64,000 nucleotides of DNA from Acidimicrobiales bacterium (GTDB taxonomy: Bacteria > Actinomycetota > Acidimicrobiia > Acidimicrobiales > JAVJTC01). A program made the translations under genes and the position numbers. The DNA lies in the NCBI GenBank assembly GCA_040219085.1, contig JAVJTC010000003.1, positions 62,001 to 126,000 on the forward strand, in the 5' to 3' direction. The notes below the pieces were generated by a model, which was given only the letters and a program-made list of their open reading frames with translations, did no database searches and had not been told where the DNA came from. Below, one piece after another: positions 28,237 through 51,533 of this stretch (position 1 is the first letter of the stretch; each line of letters starts with the position of its first letter).

Positions 28237-29559
28237 CTAGGGGGACTCGGGGTCGTCCCCGCCCTCGGCTGTGTCGTCGGTGGCGGCGTCGGCCCGGTCG
28301 TCGGACTCCCCGGACTCGGCGTCAGCGGCGTCAGCCGCATCGTCGGACTCCGCGGACTCGGCGTCAGCAGCGTCAGCGGCCTCGTCGGACTCCCCGGACT
28401 CGGCGGCGTCGACGGCCACGTCGACGGCCTCGTTGGTGGCCTCTTCGACCGCAGCCGCCGTCCACTCGTCGGCGGAGAGCGCCGGGCCGCCCTCGGCGGG
28501 CTTCCAGACCTGCTCGCCGGTCTCGGGGTCCACGATCCACTCACCCTCGGCCCAGTCCACGTCGGTGTCGACGGCGCCGGACTGCTCCTCGGCGAGCTGG
28601 GTCTCGGACTTGATGTCCACCCGCCAACCCGTGAGGCGGGCGGCGAGGCGGGCGTTCTGGCCCTCCTTGCCGATCGCGAGCGACAGCTGGTAGTCGGGCA
28701 CGATGACGTCGGCCGTGCCGGTCTCCATGTCGATGAGGACGTCCTTCACCTTCGCCGGCGACAGCGCCTTCATGACGAACTCGACGGGATCGTCCGCGAA
28801 CGGAACGATGTCGATCTTCTCGCCCCGCAACTCGTTCACGACCATGCGGACACGCGAGCCGCGTGCGCCGACGCACGCGCCCACGGGGTCCACGTTGGGG
28901 TCGTTGGACCACACGGCGATCTTGGTGCGGTGGCCGGGCTCACGCGCGCACGCCTTGATCTCGACGACGCCGTCCGCGATCTCGGGGACCTCGAGCTCGA
29001 ACAGGCGCTTGATCAGGCCCGGGTGGGTGCGGCTGACGACGATCTGGGGGCCCTTGGCCGTCTTGCGGACCTCGACGATGTAGGCCTTGAGGCGCGTGTT
29101 CGGGTCGGGCCGCTCGTAGGGGACCTGCTCGGCCTGGGGCAGCAGTGCCTCCACCCGGCCGAGGTCCAACAGGGTGTAGCGAGAATCGGTCTGTTGGATG
29201 ATGCCGGTGACGATGTCGCCCTCGCGCCCCGCGTACTCCTCGTACTTGAGCTCCCGCTCGGCCTCGCGGATGCGCTGGGTCATCACCTGGCGGGCCGTCT
29301 GCGCGGCGATCCGGCCGAAGTTGTCGGGCGTCACGTCTATCTCGTCGCCGACGGGCTCACCGTCCTCGTCGATCTCCTGGGCGATGACACGTATGTCCAT
29401 CGAGTCGGGGTCGATGGTCACCCACGCATACTCGTAGGCGCCCGGCATCCGCTTGTAGGCGGACTCGAGCGCATCAGCGAGAGCGGCGAACAGGGTGTCG
29501 ACGGAGATTCCCTTGTCGGCGGCGAGCGCCTGCAGCGCCTCCATCATGTCGGGGTTCAT
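28237..29559 (-). CDS. nusA: Transcription termination/antitermination factor NusA
   Basis: RNA polymerase-binding elongation factor. 440 aa from ATG at 29559 (GGAGG nine bases upstream; overlaps the rimP stop). The N-terminal polymerase-binding domain (1-125) is followed by S1 (GREGDIVTGIIQQTDSRYTL) and two KH domains (DPVGACVGARGSRVRMVV; SLAIGKEGQNARLAARLTG). The C-terminal 80 residues are acidic and repetitive, with a 14-residue unit ESGESDEAADAADA seen three times. Confidence 0.97.
   Translation of the reverse strand: MNPDMMEALQALAADKGISVDTLFAALADALESAYKRMPGAYEYAWVTIDPDSMDIRVIAQEIDEDGEPVGDEIDVTPDNFGRIAAQTARQVMTQRIREAERELKYEEYAGREGDIVTGIIQQTDSRYTLLDLGRVEALLPQAEQVPYERPDPNTRLKAYIVEVRKTAKGPQIVVSRTHPGLIKRLFELEVPEIADGVVEIKACAREPGHRTKIAVWSNDPNVDPVGACVGARGSRVRMVVNELRGEKIDIVPFADDPVEFVMKALSPAKVKDVLIDMETGTADVIVPDYQLSLAIGKEGQNARLAARLTGWRVDIKSETQLAEEQSGAVDTDVDWAEGEWIVDPETGEQVWKPAEGGPALSADEWTAAAVEEATNEAVDVAVDAAESGESDEAADAADAESAESDDAADAADAESGESDDRADAATDDTAEGGDDPESP
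28298..28423 (-). repeat. 42-bp tandem repeat in the nusA tail
   Basis: Three copies beginning TCGTCGGACTCC at 28298, 28340 and 28382, an exact 42-bp period that encodes a 14-residue acidic repeat (ESxESDxAADAADA). Confidence 0.8.
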
Positions 29560-30095
29560 CGCTTCGAGCCTCCAGTCGTCGCGCCGGCGGATCCGTCGGA
29601 AGCGCTGGGCTTCCGACCCGGTGGCGTGCGGCGCGAATCGCCGCCCCCGGCGTTCCAATCGAAGACCGTGCGGGCCTTCGTCATGTCGGCGATGTCGATC
29701 TCGACGGGTTCGCCCTCGTCGGTCAGCACCGTGATCGTCTGAGCATCCGAGCCGGTCAGTACGCCCCGGATGCGGCGGCGTCCGTCACGCTCATGGCGGA
29801 GCTTGACCGACACCTCCGAACCGACCGCACGGGCGAAGTGCTCGGGGTGCCGCAGCGTTCGTTCCAGGCCGGGGCTCGAGACCTCGAGGGTGTACCGGCC
29901 CGGCACGGGGTCGGCGGCGTCGAGCTCCGCGGAGACGGTTCGGGTGGCGGTGGTGAGCTGGCCCGAGTCGATGCCACCCTCGGCATCGACGCTGACGACG
30001 AGGCGTCCTCCGCCCCAGACCACGTCGAAGAGCTCGAGTCCGAGGTCGTCGAGTAGCGGCGCGACGAGTTCGCGCACCCGCTCCTCGACTCCCAT
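29556..30095 (-). CDS. rimP: Ribosome maturation factor RimP
   Basis: Needed for 30S subunit maturation. 179 aa from ATG at 30095, preceded by GGGAG six bases upstream. The N-terminal alpha/beta domain includes GLELFDVVWGGGRLVVSVD and YTLEVSSPGLERTL; the C-terminal SH3-like domain follows; the last 30 residues are Ser/Gly/Arg-rich and disordered. First gene of the rimP-nusA-infB operon, just after a probable terminator. Confidence 0.95.
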   Translation of the reverse strand: MGVEERVRELVAPLLDDLGLELFDVVWGGGRLVVSVDAEGGIDSGQLTTATRTVSAELDAADPVPGRYTLEVSSPGLERTLRHPEHFARAVGSEVSVKLRHERDGRRRIRGVLTGSDAQTITVLTDEGEPVEIDIADMTKARTVFDWNAGGGDSRRTPPGRKPSASDGSAGATTGGSKR

Positions 30096-39197: not shown

Positions 39198-40172
39198 TCA
39201 GGAAGAAGCTTCGCCCGCGGCGTCACTCGCCTCGGGGGTCGCCTCGGCCTGTGGTGCGGCAGTGGGCGCCTCGGGGGCGGCCTCGGCCTGTGGTGCGGCA
39301 GTGGGCGCCTCGGCCTGCGGTGCGGCAGTGGGCGCCTCGGGGGCGGCCTCAGCCGTGGCCTGCGCAGCCAGACGTGCCTCGCGCTCGGCGGCCTGGGCGG
39401 CAGCCGCGGCACGCGCCTCGGCCTGCTGACGGGCGACCTCGGCCTCCTCGGCCTCGCTGCGCTCGACCGCGTCCTCGCGACGGGACTTCACGTAGCGGCC
39501 CTCGATGACCGCATCGCTCATGATGCGACACATCAGCTGGCCCGACCGGATGGCGTCGTCGTTGCCGGCGATCACGAACTTGACGACGTCGGGGTCACAG
39601 TTGGTGTCCACCACGGCGATGATGGGGATGCCGAGCTTGTTCGCCTCGGTGACGGCGATGTGCTCCTTCTTGGTGTCGAGCACGAAGATGGCCTGGGGCA
39701 GCCCGGTCATGTTGCGGATGCCGCCGAGGTTCCGCTCGAGCTTCTCGAGCTCGCGGCTGATCAACAGAGCTTCCTTCTTGGGCATCGCGGCGAGCTCACC
39801 CGAATCACGCATGCGCTGGTACTCAGCCATCTTGCCGACCCGGCGCGAGATGGTCTGGAAGTTCGTGAGCATGCCGCCGAGCCAGCGATGGCTCACGTGG
39901 GGCATCCCACAGCGCTCGGCGAAGGACTGAACCGGGTCCTGGGCCTGCTTCTTGGTGCCGACGAACAGCAGCGTGCCGCCTTCGGCGGTCATGTCGCGCA
40001 CGAACGTGTACGCGTTCTCGATGTGTCCGAGGGTCTGCTTGAGATCGATGATGTAGATCCCGGCGCGCTCGCCGTGGATGTAGCGGCGCATCTTCGGGTT
40101 CCACCGTCGGGTCTGATGACCGAAGTGGACGCCTGCCTCGAGCAGCTGGCGCATAGTGACGACCGGAGCCAT
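39198..40172 (-). CDS. rpsB: 30S ribosomal protein S2 with Ala/Pro repeat tail
   Basis: 324 aa from ATG at 40172 (GGGGAGAAG upstream). The core is standard ([49 protein letters not shown]). After about residue 250 comes an Ala/Glu/Arg helix and then an Ala/Pro/Gln repeat ([11 protein letters not shown] three times), about 70 residues longer than usual S2. First ribosomal gene of the rpsB-tsf-pyrH-frr operon. Confidence 0.97.
39241..39345 (-). repeat. Tandem repeats in the rpsB tail
   Basis: Units starting GCCTCGGCCTG at 39241, 39280 and 39307 (39, 27 and 39 bp, nearly identical) encode the EAPTAAPQA repeats of S2. Confidence 0.8.
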
Positions 40173-40260
40173 GGTTTCTTCTCCCCATCGGTTGGGCGGA
40201 CTCCGCGTCCCGCGCCGTGAGGCGACCGTGGGTGGGACCGGAGAGGATCTGTCGTGGTGC

Positions 40261-40277
40261 GCCCGGACGTCCCGGGC
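40261..40277 (-). other. Hairpin between the LytM-like gene and rpsB
   Basis: Arms GCCCGG and CCGGGC with a 5-nt loop, 14 bases after the LytM-like stop and about 90 bases before the rpsB start. No T-run. Either a weak terminator or part of an rpsB leader. Confidence 0.4.
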
Positions 40278-40290
40278 ACGGCCCCCGATA

Positions 40291-40944
40291 CTACCGGGAC
40301 CACGTCGGGAGGAGGTCCCCCCACCGCCTGAACAGCTCGCGGACCTGCACCACGGCGGTGACGGCCGCGTCCGGCCATGCCGCGGGTCCCGCGGTTCGGA
40401 CGACGGAGCCCCCCGGTTCCGGCCCGGGCCGCGCCGGAGCGGAACCGACTCCCACCAGGCGGGCCCGGGTCCGCTCGAACAACGACGCCGGGTCGATGTA
40501 GTCGTCGCCGACGCGTGCGCCCAGGTGCAGCACGGACCCCGACACGGCGATGGCCTCCCCGCGCGACACGACGTCACCCGTGGAGACGAGGATCCGCGCG
40601 ACGAACGAGTACGACGTCCGTACGCCGTCCGCATGGAGAACCGTCACATGGAGATCGCCACCCACGGGCCCTGCGAACACGACGCGGCCGTCCGCAACGG
40701 CCCCCACCCCCGTCCCCGGGGCGGGGCTGTACTCCAGGCCACGGTTCCCCGGCCCTGCGAAGTGCAGAGGGGCACGGAAGGGGTCGACCACCGCCGCATC
40801 CACCGGTGGTTGGTACACGACGCGATCCACGGTTTCGTCCGGTGAAGCCATCGCTCCCCGGGCGTGTCCGGCCGAAGCCGGAGCGGCGAGCACGACCGCC
40901 AGTACCGCGACGAGCACCGCGAGAAGCGCTGCGGTGACCCCCAC
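40291..40944 (-). CDS. Degenerate LytM/M23-like exported protein
   Basis: 217 aa from a GTG at 40944 (AGGG upstream), 14 bases after the whiG stop. Signal peptide with Ala/Val-rich core and cleavage site APASA near residue 25. One LytM-type beta domain (about 70-155) with [19 protein letters not shown] and [13 protein letters not shown]. Active-site residues are largely replaced: HxxxD is Asn 67/Glu 71, the YxHL His is Phe 114, and HxH is Val 138-x-His 140. It is probably non-catalytic, like EnvC/NlpD-type amidase activators. An M23 gene at this place is conserved in actinobacteria. Confidence 0.8.
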
Positions 40945-47145: not shown

Positions 47146-47868
47146 TCACCCGTCGAGTTCGGTGTCGAGCAGCGTCTGTTCGGCGTCGGTCAGGCCTCCG
47201 CGCCGTTCGATCAGGTCCGGTCGGCGTCGCATCGTCTGGCGCAGAGCCTGGGCCCTGCGCCAGCGTGCGATCCGTCCATGGTCACCCGAGCGCAGGACCT
47301 CCGGGACCACCATGTCGCGGTACTCGGCGGGCCGCGTGTACTGCGGATACTCGAGCAGGTCGTCGCTGAAAGACTCCTCGGTCGCCGACCCGACGTTGCC
47401 CATGACCCCCGGTACGAGCCGACCGACGGCCTCCAGGACGACGAGCGCCGCCACCTCGCCCCCCGACACCACGAAATCCCCGACGGACAACTCCTCGTCG
47501 ACGAGAGCCGTGCGGACCCGCTCGTCGACGCCCTCGTAGCGGCCACACAGCATCGTGAACCCACCGAGGGACGCGAGGCGACGCGCCTCGGCCTGATCGA
47601 AACGCCGACCCGACGGTGACAGCAGGATCAGAGGCCGGGGCGGTTCGACGGCCTCGACCGTTTCGAATATGGGTGGCGCGGTCAGCACCATGCCCGGCCC
47701 CCCGCCGAAGGGCGTGTCGTCCACGGAGCGGTGCACATCATGGGTGGCCGCACGCAGGTCGTGGACACGGACGTCGAGCAACCCCGCGGCCCGTGCCTTG
47801 CCGATCAGACTCTCGGATGCGAAGTCGTCGACCAGGCGGGGAAAGATGGTGAGCACGTCGATGCGCAC
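47146..47868 (-). CDS. trmD: tRNA (guanine-N1)-methyltransferase
   Basis: Methylates G37 of tRNAs. 240 aa from a GTG at 47868 ([10 protein letters not shown]), the family start; an ATG six codons earlier would overlap the rimM end. The trefoil-knot SPOUT fold is seen in [29 protein letters not shown] and [20 protein letters not shown]. Order rpsP-khpA-rimM-trmD-rplS is the classical one. Confidence 0.96.
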
Positions 47869-47872
47869 GGTC

Positions 47873-48370
47873 TCAGGACCCGCCATCGTCCCCGGCGGGT
47901 TCGCCGGTGTCATCATCGTCACCCAGCTCGAAGAGCCCGGGCGGGACCTCCACACTCACCGCACCGTCCGATACCTCGGTCACGAATCGCAGGGGCACGA
48001 GAACACCCGAGTCGGACACGATCAGATCACTCGCCGGGTTCTCCTGGAGTGCGACGACCTCACCGCGGTCGACTCCGCCCTCGAGGATGCGAAGCCCGAT
48101 CAGGTCGTGGGCCCAGAGGACATCGGGGTCGTCCAGGGCGGGCGCGGTCACCGGCCCCCGCAGACCCTCGGCGGCATCCCGGTCGGAGACACCTGCGAAC
48201 CGCACGAGCCACCGGTTCTTGTCGCGACGCGAGCCGACGACTTCGAGTTCGCGGCCCGCCACCGTGAGGACCGATCCGGGCTGAACGCGTTCGAGGCGAT
48301 CCGTGACGAGTTGCACCACGACCTCACCGCGCAGTCCGTGAGCCCGGGTCACGGTCCCGACCTCGAGCAT
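47873..48370 (-). CDS. rimM: Ribosome maturation factor RimM
   Basis: Binds S19 and assists 30S head assembly. 165 aa; starts MLEVGTVTRAHGLRGEVVV (a GTG one codon upstream also follows GGGTGA). The N-terminal beta-barrel and C-terminal PRC-barrel (DLIGLRILEGGVDRGEVVAL ... VLVPLRFVTEV) are present; the tail is acidic. Confidence 0.95.
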   Translation of the reverse strand: MLEVGTVTRAHGLRGEVVVQLVTDRLERVQPGSVLTVAGRELEVVGSRRDKNRWLVRFAGVSDRDAAEGLRGPVTAPALDDPDVLWAHDLIGLRILEGGVDRGEVVALQENPASDLIVSDSGVLVPLRFVTEVSDGAVSVEVPPGLFELGDDDDTGEPAGDDGGS

Positions 48371-48410: not shown

Positions 48411-48668
48411 TCACTGGTCGATGAACTCGACCTCGACCTCTTCTTCGCCGTCGGTGGCAGCGGCAGCGGCCACGACGGTGCGGATGGCGTTGGCCATGCG
48501 GCCACGCTTGCCGATGACGCGCCCCATGTCGCCGTCACCGACGCGCACATCCAGACGGAGCGCGTTCTCGTTCTCGCTGGCCTCGATGTCGACGGCGTCG
48601 GGATCGTCGACGATGGAGCGCACGATCAGATCGAGTACGGCCTCTGCTGCACCGATGTCGTTGCTCAC
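48411..48668 (-). CDS. khpA: KH-domain RNA-binding protein KhpA
   Basis: 85-aa single KH domain; GKRG in DMGRVIGKRGRMANAIRTVV is the GxxG loop. KhpA proteins bind RNA with KhpB (Jag) and affect cell size. Overlaps the rpsP stop by 4 bases. Located between rpsP and rimM as usual. Confidence 0.95.
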   Translation of the reverse strand: MSNDIGAAEAVLDLIVRSIVDDPDAVDIEASENENALRLDVRVGDGDMGRVIGKRGRMANAIRTVVAAAAATDGEEEVEVEFIDQ

Positions 48669-49234
48669 GCGGTCTCCTTCGAATCGTCTGTGTCGTCGGC
48701 GGGGGTATCGGCACCCTCGTCGCTGGTGTCGGTTGCCTCAGCGGCGTCGTCCGTGGAATCAGCGACCTCTTCTGCGGCGTCAGCGACGCTGTCCGCAGCC
48801 GTCGCAGCGACATCCGCAACAGCCTCGGCCACGTCCTCGGCCTTGTCAGCCACGGCGTCGGCGACGTCGGCGACCTTGTCGGCCACGACCTCCGCGGCAT
48901 CGGTGACCTTGTCGGCGACAGCCTCCGCGGCATCCGAAGCGGCGTCAGCGATGCGGGTCACGGCCGGCGGGGGCGGTTCGCCACTGAACTCCTCCCAGGC
49001 ACCGGAGATCTTCAACAACTTCTCGACCCGCTCGGTGGGCTTCGCACCGTCGCGCAACCAGCGCAACGCCTTGTCGTTGTCGATCTTGACCACCGACGGG
49101 TCACGGCGCGGATCGTAGAACCCGACGATCTCGATGAACCGCCCGTCGCGCGGCGAACGCGCGTCGGCTGCCACCACCCGGTAGGTCGGTTGCTTCTTCT
49201 TGCCCATCCGCATCAGGCGGAGCTTCACTGCCAC
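48665..49234 (-). CDS. rpsP: 30S ribosomal protein S16 with hendecad-repeat tail
   Basis: 189 aa, about twice the usual 80-90. The core is residues 1-85 (VKLRLMRMGKKKQPTYRVVAAD ... GFYDPRRDP). From residue 96 to 161 come six exact 11-residue repeats of the form ADKVxDAAEVV, followed by a Thr/Asp-rich end. The start is the first GTG (49234), with AAGGATC upstream. First gene of rpsP-khpA-rimM-trmD. Confidence 0.95.
   Translation of the reverse strand: MAVKLRLMRMGKKKQPTYRVVAADARSPRDGRFIEIVGFYDPRRDPSVVKIDNDKALRWLRDGAKPTERVEKLLKISGAWEEFSGEPPPPAVTRIADAASDAAEAVADKVTDAAEVVADKVADVADAVADKAEDVAEAVADVAATAADSVADAAEEVADSTDDAAEATDTSDEGADTPADDTDDSKETA
48752..48949 (-). repeat. Six 33-bp units coding 11-residue repeats in rpsP
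   Basis: Codes for residues 96-161 of S16: six in-register units beginning Ala-Asp (ADAASDAAEAV, ADKVTDAAEVV, ADKVADVADAV, ADKAEDVAEAV, ADVAATAADSV, ADAAEEVADST). DNA units are diverged, so the period is kept at protein level. Confidence 0.85.
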
Positions 49235-49399: not shown

Positions 49400-50851
49400 T
49401 CAACCGCCGCCCAGGCGACGCAGTTCGTCCAGGTCCAGACCGCCGGCCCCGTCATCGAGTCCGGGCAACGACAGCGACTTCGCCGCGTTCGCCTTCTGTG
49501 CCTTCGACGGCGTGACCCGCCCGCCCTTCTTGCCCTTCTTCTTTTTCTTCTTCGCGAGGCGCTTCGACCCGAGCCCGCCCATCCGCTTCATCATCCGCTG
49601 GACCTCACGGAACTGCTTGAAGAGTTGGCTGACATCGGAGGGGTTCATGCCGCTGCCGTTTGCGATCCGTGACCGGCGGGAGGCATCGATGATCTCGGGA
49701 TTGGCGCGCTCCTCGAAGGTCATCGAGGTGATCATCGCCTCGACACGCGCCATCTGGCGGTCGTCGATCTCCGCGTCGCGCACCTCCTTCGGCACGCCGG
49801 GAAGCATCCCCATCAGGCTCGTCAGCGGGCCCATCTTCTTGAGTTGCTGCATCTGATCGAGGAAGTCGTCGAGCGTGAACGTGCCGTCGAGGATCTTCTC
49901 GGCGGCCTTCTCGGCCTCCTCCGCCTCATAGGCGCCCTCCGCCTTCTCGATGAGGGTGAGCATGTCGCCCATCCCGAGGATGCGTCCGGCGAGACGGTCG
50001 GGGTGGAACAGGTCGAAGTCCTCGACGCGCTCGCCGGTGGAGGCGAATGCGATCGGGCGCCCGACCACCTCCTTCACCGACAACGCTGCACCGCCGCGGG
50101 CATCGCCGTCGAGCTTCGTGAGGATCACGCCGTCGAGCTCGAGGGTCTCGTGGAAGGCCTGCGCGACGCCGACCGCGTCCTGGCCGGTCATCGCGTCCAC
50201 GACGAGGAAGGTGTAGTCCGGCTCGATGGCCTCGGAGATCTGACGGACCTGGCCCATCAGCTCCGCGTCGATGGCGAGACGTCCGGCGGTGTCGCAGATG
50301 ACGACGTCACGCCCCGTGGCGGCCGCCTCCTCCAGAGACCGGCGCGCGACCTCGACGGGATCGCTCGGCTCCGAGAACACCGGCACGTCGATCTGGCCAC
50401 CCAGGGTGCGGAGCTGCTCGACCGCCGCGGGCCGTTGGAGGTCCGCACCGACCAGCAGCGGGTTGCGTCCCTGCTGTTTGAACCACCGCGCCAACTTCGC
50501 GGAGTTGGTTGTCTTCCCCGAGCCCTGCAGGCCGGCCATCAACACGACGGTGGGCGGCTTCTTGGCGAACTCGATACGGATCGCCTCGCCGCCGAGGGTC
50601 GCGATCAGTTCCTCGTGGACGATCTTGATGACCTGTTGGGCAGGGTTCAGCGCCGCGTGCAGGTCGGCACCGACGCAGCGCTCACGCACCCGGTCACGGA
50701 AGGATCGGACGACACCGACGTTGACATCGGCCTCGAGAAGGGCGACTCGGATCTCACGGAGAACCTCGTCGACGTCGGAGTCCTTGAGGCGTCCCTTGCC
50801 CTTGAGGCCCGAGAAGATCCCCTCGAAGCGTTCGGAAAGTGTTTCGAACAT
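49400..50851 (-). CDS. ffh: Signal recognition particle protein Ffh
   Basis: SRP54 GTPase that directs membrane proteins to FtsY. 483 aa. N domain, G domain (GLQGSGKTTNSAKLA; DTAGRLAID; TKLDGDARGGAAL) and Met-rich M domain (GSGMNPSDVSQLFKQFREVQRMMKRMGG) are complete; a Lys run (AKKKKKKGKK) follows. ATG start. Confidence 0.97.
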   Translation of the reverse strand: MFETLSERFEGIFSGLKGKGRLKDSDVDEVLREIRVALLEADVNVGVVRSFRDRVRERCVGADLHAALNPAQQVIKIVHEELIATLGGEAIRIEFAKKPPTVVLMAGLQGSGKTTNSAKLARWFKQQGRNPLLVGADLQRPAAVEQLRTLGGQIDVPVFSEPSDPVEVARRSLEEAAATGRDVVICDTAGRLAIDAELMGQVRQISEAIEPDYTFLVVDAMTGQDAVGVAQAFHETLELDGVILTKLDGDARGGAALSVKEVVGRPIAFASTGERVEDFDLFHPDRLAGRILGMGDMLTLIEKAEGAYEAEEAEKAAEKILDGTFTLDDFLDQMQQLKKMGPLTSLMGMLPGVPKEVRDAEIDDRQMARVEAMITSMTFEERANPEIIDASRRSRIANGSGMNPSDVSQLFKQFREVQRMMKRMGGLGSKRLAKKKKKKGKKGGRVTPSKAQKANAAKSLSLPGLDDGAGGLDLDELRRLGGG

Positions 50852-50903: not shown

Positions 50904-51533
50904 TCAGCTCGTGACGCCTATCGCAGGTGGCAGAACGGCAGCCAGGACACGGTCCCAGTCGTCGATCCCGCACCCGTTGGTCCGGGTGATCGTCACGTCC
51001 ACCTCGACACCGTCGAGAAGACCGCCGATGACGGCCTCGTCGGGGCCCCCGTACTGCTCGGTGCAGATCCGATCCACCGCCGGCCCCTCGGTGAGCAGCG
51101 TGACGACCTCAGGATCGTTCAGCGCGAGGCAGGCCGACTCTGCTCGGACCGACGTCGACCCGAGCACCGTCGCCGTGTCCCCGAGACAGGACACGACGTA
51201 GGTGACCGCCGCCCTGTCCGGGTGGGTGACCGTGACGTCGAGATTCGCCACCGGGTACGCGTCGACCCCGTCCACGGGCCGCGTCGCTGTGCTGTCGCCG
51301 CCGGAGGCGGACCGTCCATCGTCGAGCGGAGCATCCGACGCGCTGTCGTCGCCGCCGGGCGCGGACTGCCCATCGTCGGGCGAACCGTCCGAGGCTGTGT
51401 CGTCGCCGCCGGAGGCTGTGTCATCATCGCCCGTCGCGGTGTCCGAACCGTCGGAACCGCAGGCGACCACGATCAGGGCCACCAGGATCAGCAGGGCTGC
51501 GAGTGGGCGTCGCACGGGTCTGTCTCCGTTCAT
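50904..51533 (-). CDS. Lipoprotein with subtilisin-inhibitor-like (SSI) domain
   Basis: 209 aa. Signal peptide with Cys 25 as lipidation site (LIVVAC), then a 65-residue Asp/Ser/Gly linker with DDTASGGDD-type repeats. The C-terminal domain (about 95-205) has four Cys at 116, 135, 157 and 188, with SACLAL, CTEQYGGPDEAVIGG and TRTNGCGIDDWDRV. Spacing and motifs match SSI-family inhibitors, which normally have two disulfides. The residue at the P1 position (Cys+2) is Glu 159. Predicted to sit on the outer face of the membrane and bind or inhibit a serine protease. Lies between ffh and ftsY. Confidence 0.78.
   Translation of the reverse strand: MNGDRPVRRPLAALLILVALIVVACGSDGSDTATGDDDTASGGDDTASDGSPDDGQSAPGGDDSASDAPLDDGRSASGGDSTATRPVDGVDAYPVANLDVTVTHPDRAAVTYVVSCLGDTATVLGSTSVRAESACLALNDPEVVTLLTEGPAVDRICTEQYGGPDEAVIGGLLDGVEVDVTITRTNGCGIDDWDRVLAAVLPPAIGVTS

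Follow-up and report, generated by a model that had tools for sequence, protein, structure and literature searches.

The ribosomal protein bS16 encoded in the window (the whole 64,000-nucleotide stretch of DNA that was analysed) carries, after its conserved core, a tail built largely of six 11-residue repeats in unbroken phase. We put at about one half the probability that this tail is a lineage-specific, selected and strongly acidic helical spacer that goes beyond the known actinobacterial bS16 extension. S16 tails as such, and their Ala/Glu low complexity, are already known, and what seems to be new is this particular 11-residue acidic helical unit on S16.

In the mechanism that we propose, the S16 core would sit in the body of the 30S subunit as usual and, by analogy with Mycobacterium smegmatis and Cutibacterium acnes, the first part of the tail would run over the 30S surface towards uS4. 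Beyond it, the six units (66 residues) would fold into a strongly acidic and for the most part single alpha-helix, about 10 nm long at 1.5 Å per residue, which would point into the solvent and end in a disordered stretch. On the surface of the ribosome, such a tail could serve as a spacer, electrostatic as well as steric, and for this role charge, length and helicity would outweigh the exact sequence. The repeats themselves would go back to a 33-base unit that was duplicated in tandem long ago, and selection on the residues would have held them since.

The rpsP gene and its 11-residue array

The rpsP gene lies on the minus strand at 48665-49234 and encodes 189 amino acids between a GTG start and a TGA stop. 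Its product belongs to bS16, matching PF00886 over residues 9-67 (E 7.9e-24, 83.8 bits against a Pfam cut-off of 27) and TIGR00002 over residues 3-79 (105.5 bits against a cut-off of 45.3), and a search of its own genome with the full-length protein at E <= 0.001 returned a single match, S16 itself. The gene order on the minus strand is ffh, rpsP, khpA, rimM, trmD and rplS, which contains the expected rpsP-rimM-trmD-rplS neighbourhood; khpA, rimM and rplS were assigned by Pfam, and trmD (47146-47955) and ffh (49400-50851) were only read from the translations of their open reading frames. The GTG start of khpA, which encodes a KH domain protein (PF13083; 48411-48668, minus strand), shares four bases (GTGA) with the rpsP stop, and a Shine-Dalgarno-like AAGGAG at 48674-48679 on the minus strand, within the final codons of the S16 reading frame, is a candidate site for khpA translation.

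The protein can be divided into four parts, all encoded on the minus strand. The conserved core (residues 1-80, 48995-49234) ends in ...KISGAW, is covered by the two family models and has AF2 block means of 85-97. It is followed by a Pro-rich proximal linker of 15 residues, EEFSGEPPPPAVTRI (residues 81-95, 48950-48994), and similar linkers stand at the equivalent place in several long-tailed relatives. Next come the six repeats (residues 96-161, 48752-48949), helix-compatible by sequence analysis, and then a degenerate seventh unit with an acidic, probably disordered end (residues 162-189 plus the stop codon, 48665-48751), the AF2 block means being 52-62 over residues 161-189.

The six units read ADAASDAAEAV, ADKVTDAAEVV, ADKVADVADAV, ADKAEDVAEAV, ADVAATAADSV and ADAAEEVADST, and follow each other without insertion or deletion. 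The initial annotation had reported an S16 core with six perfect 11-residue units, and both the array and its coordinates proved exact; "perfect" holds for the phase and the absence of indels but not for the residues, since only A1, D2 and A8 are present in 6/6 units and V11 in 5/6 (Thr in the sixth), with the remaining positions variable and a mean pairwise identity of 0.545 among units. Lag-11 identity over the 66-residue region is 0.60, which none of 20000 composition-preserving shuffles matched, and, with all lags between 2 and 30 considered, 0/5000 shuffles attained the observed repeat identity. Tandem Repeats Finder likewise gives a 33-base period, entered twice (48825-48887 and 48841-48934) with 83% matches in both cases. 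Apolar residues occupy unit positions 4, 7/8 and 11, a 3-4-4, hendecad-like spacing, and the 66 residues include 19 acidic ones and 3 Lys for a net charge of -16, the net charge of the last 97 residues of S16 being -26.

We also considered that the array might be a copy of a repeat located elsewhere in the same genome, which was not supported: the full-length and tail-only searches found S16 alone, with 15 of 28 candidates scored in the latter. In any one genome, such repeat-only and tail-only searches scored no more than 15 candidates, and they have little power to find diverged repeats.

Several other proteins encoded in the window contain repeats or low-complexity stretches. NusA (28237-29658, minus strand) has acidic 14-residue tandem repeats at its C-terminal end (28283-28405), uS2 (39198-40634, minus) has low-complexity repeats at the same end (39228-39340), and PNPase (20558-23248, minus) has an Arg/Gly/Asp-rich C-terminal repeat (20783-20905). 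IF-2 holds low-complexity stretches, and a lipoprotein-like open reading frame (50904-51533, minus) carries, after a signal-like start, an Asp/Ser/Gly-rich 54-base tandem repeat (51285-51413).

Age of the repeats and variation of S16 tails

The codons allow the age of the array to be judged. Among the 43 pairs of identical residues at lag 11 in the tail, the codon is shared in 21, where synonymous shuffles lead one to expect 19.4 (P 0.34), and a second codon-sharing test on the repeat gave 14/25 against 12.4 expected. Because synonymous codons agree between units at chance level only, the repeats do not look like recent copies, and a fresh minisatellite in this rpsP was rejected by the same tests. 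Recently duplicated tails are readily seen with this approach, as in two relatives with 30/32 shared codons against 11.2 expected (L055) and 30/33 against 15.8 (L066), and 11 of the 29 repeat tails tested were plainly recent DNA copies (P <= 0.001), although the test is weak for very short units.

Pooled over the six units, pS is 0.683 and pN 0.311, for a dN/dS of about 0.22 that is rough given that there are six units only; bootstrapping pN-pS gave -0.55 to -0.18. Units 2 and 3 are exceptional, with a pS of 0.24, and at least this duplication may be younger. In neutral-decay simulations that used the units' own base composition, the observed residue identity was equalled or exceeded in 37/139, 3/126, 1/126, 0/120 and 0/121 replicates at five times with mean pS of 0.37, 0.44, 0.51, 0.55 and 0.61, respectively, the longest of which falls short of the observed 0.683. 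Since residues and phase have been kept while synonymous sites are saturated, the repeats look to be held by selection, and they are probably old and residue-constrained rather than products of drift. This constraint may extend beyond the window's gene, because several relatives with other units (for instance, L132, L053, L039 and L206) also show chance-level codon sharing.

For comparison, 190 distinct complete S16 proteins were obtained from 259 loci of the order, some genomes being represented twice, after incomplete, X-bearing and duplicate sequences were dropped; seven further loci gave no S16, five of them being tail-search matches (L138-L142) and two having none in the stretch fetched (L241, L250). 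The sample is non-random, as loci were chosen first by their best core matches from the 382 of 397 order genomes with a match. Tail length, counted as residues after the end of the GAW motif, ranges from 3 to 138 with a median of 32.5, and is at least 30 in 104 proteins, at least 60 in 59, and below 15 in 53. Given these 53 short-tailed proteins among 190, a long S16 tail is, to judge from the sequences, dispensable in the order. Net negative charge is found in 101 of the 104 tails of at least 30 residues and in 29 of the 67 shorter than 20, and 25 of 29 repeat windows in the order's S16 tails contain Pro.

A strong 11-residue period is rare. Only 2 of the 82 tails of at least 44 residues have one, namely the window's (0.70 over the best 44 residues) and that of L228 (0.88), with the next value at 0.42. 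The L228 unit is unrelated to the window's and is freshly duplicated DNA (same codon in 28/30 pairs against 12.2 expected), and its congeners have units of 12 residues (L230, L238) or 22 residues (L227). The window's own unit was found in no other S16 read in this order and, on the present sample, seems to be peculiar to its lineage. A repeat-only search of the 397 order genomes gave six matching genomes at E <= 0.001, and a similar search across 396 phylum genomes gave three at E <= 1e-4; the five and two matches besides the window's are not S16. Among the matches listed in our literature search, there was no report of repeat periods in S16 tails.

A similar unit does serve as a spacer outside S16. 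A phosphonate-binding-type protein with a lipoprotein-like start (L138, 1417-2664), unrelated to S16 and from a different family of the order, has 11-residue DVADSVADEAE repeats ahead of its PF12974 domain.

Of the genomes compared, the four nearest by the neighbouring Ffh protein (74-77% identity), all from families other than that of the window's genome, have S16 tails of 62, 67, 138 and 47 residues without an 11-residue period. The initial annotation had held that such a result would mark the repeat as drift; these relatives do indeed lack the period, but the codons contradict the verdict of drift. The variation can be followed within one genus (g36; 12 genomes, L145, L227-L234, L238, L256 and L260), in which the last 70 core residues are 89-100% identical to those of L227 while tail length varies between 41 and 120 residues and the repeat units differ, some being tandem units of 11, 12 or 22 residues. 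The ends of these tails are alike, mostly with VTxAAS near the core and EKxE...ES at the terminus. Across the order, [VI]TxA..S occurs early in 21 of 88 tails of at least 40 residues (500 shuffles averaged 0.6 such tails, with at most 3), a pattern that was picked after viewing the data and to which the window's own linker has no exact match.

These comparisons bear on a second explanation, in which the tail is passive low-complexity sequence produced by slippage on GC-rich Ala/Asp/Glu codons at a permissive gene end, the 11-residue period is accidental, and nothing beyond solubility and acidity is required of the tail. The changing tails on near-identical cores in genus g36, the recent copies in 11 of 29 repeat tails, the aperiodic tails of the nearest Ffh relatives, and the fact that NusA and uS2 in the same window likewise end in repeats all agree with it. 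However, slippage alone predicts neither residues and phase kept at saturated synonymous sites nor an amphipathicity that leads all 59 long tails, and we regard a passive origin as a serious but unlikely account of this tail. An essential ribosomal protein with such a constant core within a genus, a tail of nearly threefold variable length and swapped units constitutes a clean natural experiment on the purpose of ribosomal tails, and the window's S16 is the best case that we have met for asking whether tails are selected as helices or tolerated as junk.

Helicity, charge and possible partners

The hydrophobic moment of the 66-residue repeat peaks near 98-100 degrees at a value reached by 0/5000 shuffles, and by this measure the tail ranks first of the 59 that have at least 60 residues. 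The proposal that the 11-residue period is compatible with an amphipathic helix is thus borne out. The longest run free of Pro and Gly is 83 residues, the second longest among 45 tails (110 in L206; median 18). The two AF2 runs conflict on the shape of the tail: with 45 aligned sequences, its block means are 50-65 pLDDT and two separate helices are predicted, whereas the single-sequence run gives one helix over residues 90-169 with block means of 90-95 over residues 111-160. The latter run fails on the S16 core (31-46), so its helix may reflect no more than the Ala-rich sequence. We infer that the repeat would be a mostly helical, marginally stable rod.

Charge bears on where such a rod could lie. 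The discrimination value, a HeliQuest-type combination of moment and charge, stays below zero in all 18-residue windows across the repeat (best -0.31, mean -0.98), whereas a membrane-binding amphipathic helix should give a positive value. Because of these values and the net charge of -16 in 66 residues, binding to membranes or lipids is disfavoured, contrary to the membrane contact first suggested for this tail; the hibernation or stress protection proposed alongside it would be speculative. The negative charge would also argue against the tail lying on rRNA.

A bolder version of the spacer reading would have every ribosome of the lineage bear a selected, single acidic hendecad rod, about 10 nm long, on the face of the 30S body turned to the solvent, where it would set spacing or recruit a partner such as neighbouring ribosomes or a factor on the mRNA-entry side, with the S16 tail serving in this order as a fast-evolving adaptor site for unrelated modules. 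The adaptor idea was raised because the S16 of one relative ends in a sunset domain, and we consider this whole picture improbable, if worth stating. From a few cases, the S16 C-terminus in this order looks like a site of tail swapping.

In that near relative (G052), the S16 tail (L004, 1114-1764, minus strand; same gene in L306 and L068) consists of a linker and a sunset domain (NF051437, scoring 73.6 bits where the cut-off is 27), and it is nearly identical to the L4 tail of the same genome (L301). Among its listed NCBIfam matches, this S16 has sunset variants of S2, L4, L17 and L20 and none of S16, and a full-text literature search for "sunset domain" returned only a library-science article. 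As read from sequence, sunset domains in relatives also stand at or near the ends of a putative ATP synthase gamma subunit, S2, an Fe-S oxidoreductase-like protein, L4 and an aquaporin-like channel (L300, L302, L305, L307, L308). The sunset pattern fitted 8 of 12 sunset loci, and the domain was found in 5 of 16 relatives searched, with one match in the window's own genome (L299).

The hendecad-like spacing raises the further possibility of a coiled coil or partner-binding helix, in which the Val/Ala stripe would pair with a second copy of itself or with a different protein, as might happen where ribosomes lie side by side or form dimers. The apolar positions 4, 7/8 and 11, the 11-residue period and the large moment at 98 degrees are what one would expect of such a helix, but the stripe is mostly Ala, 19 acidic residues to 3 Lys disfavour self-association, and the hendecad literature does not include S16 among the matches listed, which together make pairing a still more doubtful proposition.

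Comparison with known extensions and 11-residue repeats

LEA group 3 proteins, apolipoproteins and synuclein have 11-residue repeats, and the S16 tail has both the period and the amphipathicity in common with them; it differs in being strongly acidic and in having no family match above cut-off. The parallel with LEA group 3 and apolipoproteins drawn initially was not backed by the family models: PF02987 (LEA_4) gave no match to the tail or the whole S16 at E <= 10 (beyond roughly 0.1, most matches are discarded by the HMMER filters), and PF01442 (Apolipoprotein A1/A4/E) scored 17.9 bits against a cut-off of 90. Weak tail matches to the gas vesicle protein GvpQ (E 0.0011 and 0.0031), a phage tape measure protein (PF06791, E 0.0034 with the whole protein) and phasins were set aside as compositional. 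In another family of the phylum, a small free LEA_4-like protein consists of 11-residue repeats (L298, 1399-1761; 34.8 bits to PF02987, below the cut-off of 51.1). A membrane- or desiccation-active amphipathic helix of the LEA, apolipoprotein or synuclein kind could appeal to this free protein and to sub-threshold matches, those of the tail to Apolipoprotein (E 0.0027) and YtxH (0.003) and those of the repeat, in the PDB, to SHERP (0.0047) and to a heat shock protein of 12 kDa (0.31), but it is very improbable in view of the charge-driven discrimination values, the family scores just given, and the many Lys that L298 has beside its acidic residues where the S16 repeat has 3 Lys to 19 acidic.

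The closest known systems are the bS16 extensions of M. smegmatis (156 aa) and C. acnes (147 aa), which have the same core, a tail in the same place, FxG right after the core and, in the letters of the M. smegmatis protein, an Ala-rich distal part. According to PMC6133939, the M. smegmatis extension has 74 residues, of which 30 make up a short helix reaching uS4, and PMC10085706 describes a 65-residue C. acnes extension that binds uS4, with part of the C-terminus lacking density, and ties this extension to a short h17. By analogy, the proximal linker would be the part of the window's S16 tail most likely to contact the ribosome. In the window's genome the h17 region is short too, with 33 bases between two anchors, and the stretch is 33-34 bases in 15/15 genomes measured out of 23 (the other eight were dropped because their 16S did not fit the search pattern). 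We therefore rejected the possibility that tail length tracks h17 length: because short h17 accompanies tails of 3 to 120 residues in these genomes, it does not explain the distribution of long tails.

The initial view of such S16 tails as non-standard has to be given up. Besides the 104 of 190 order proteins with tails of at least 30 residues, there are NCBIfam S16 models of 119, 156 and 186 positions, and PMC6821194 ranks S16 fifth among the bacterial annotations richest in low-complexity regions (186), these being mostly Ala and Glu in 157/187. The long-tailed S16 equivalog NF011093 (PRK14520) matches the window's protein over residues 1-148 with 136.8 bits, below its cut-off of 165. What sets the window's tail apart from each of these systems is its unit: the M. 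smegmatis tail is rich in Lys, Ala, Glu and Pro and has no 11-residue repeat, and the low-complexity regions of PMC6821194 differ from an Ala/Asp/Val tail in strict 11-residue helical phase. The tails of the order's other S16 proteins are likewise acidic, Ala-rich, often repetitive and hypervariable in length, and they differ from the window's in building on units of, for example, 4, 9, 10, 12, 15, 17 or 22 residues.
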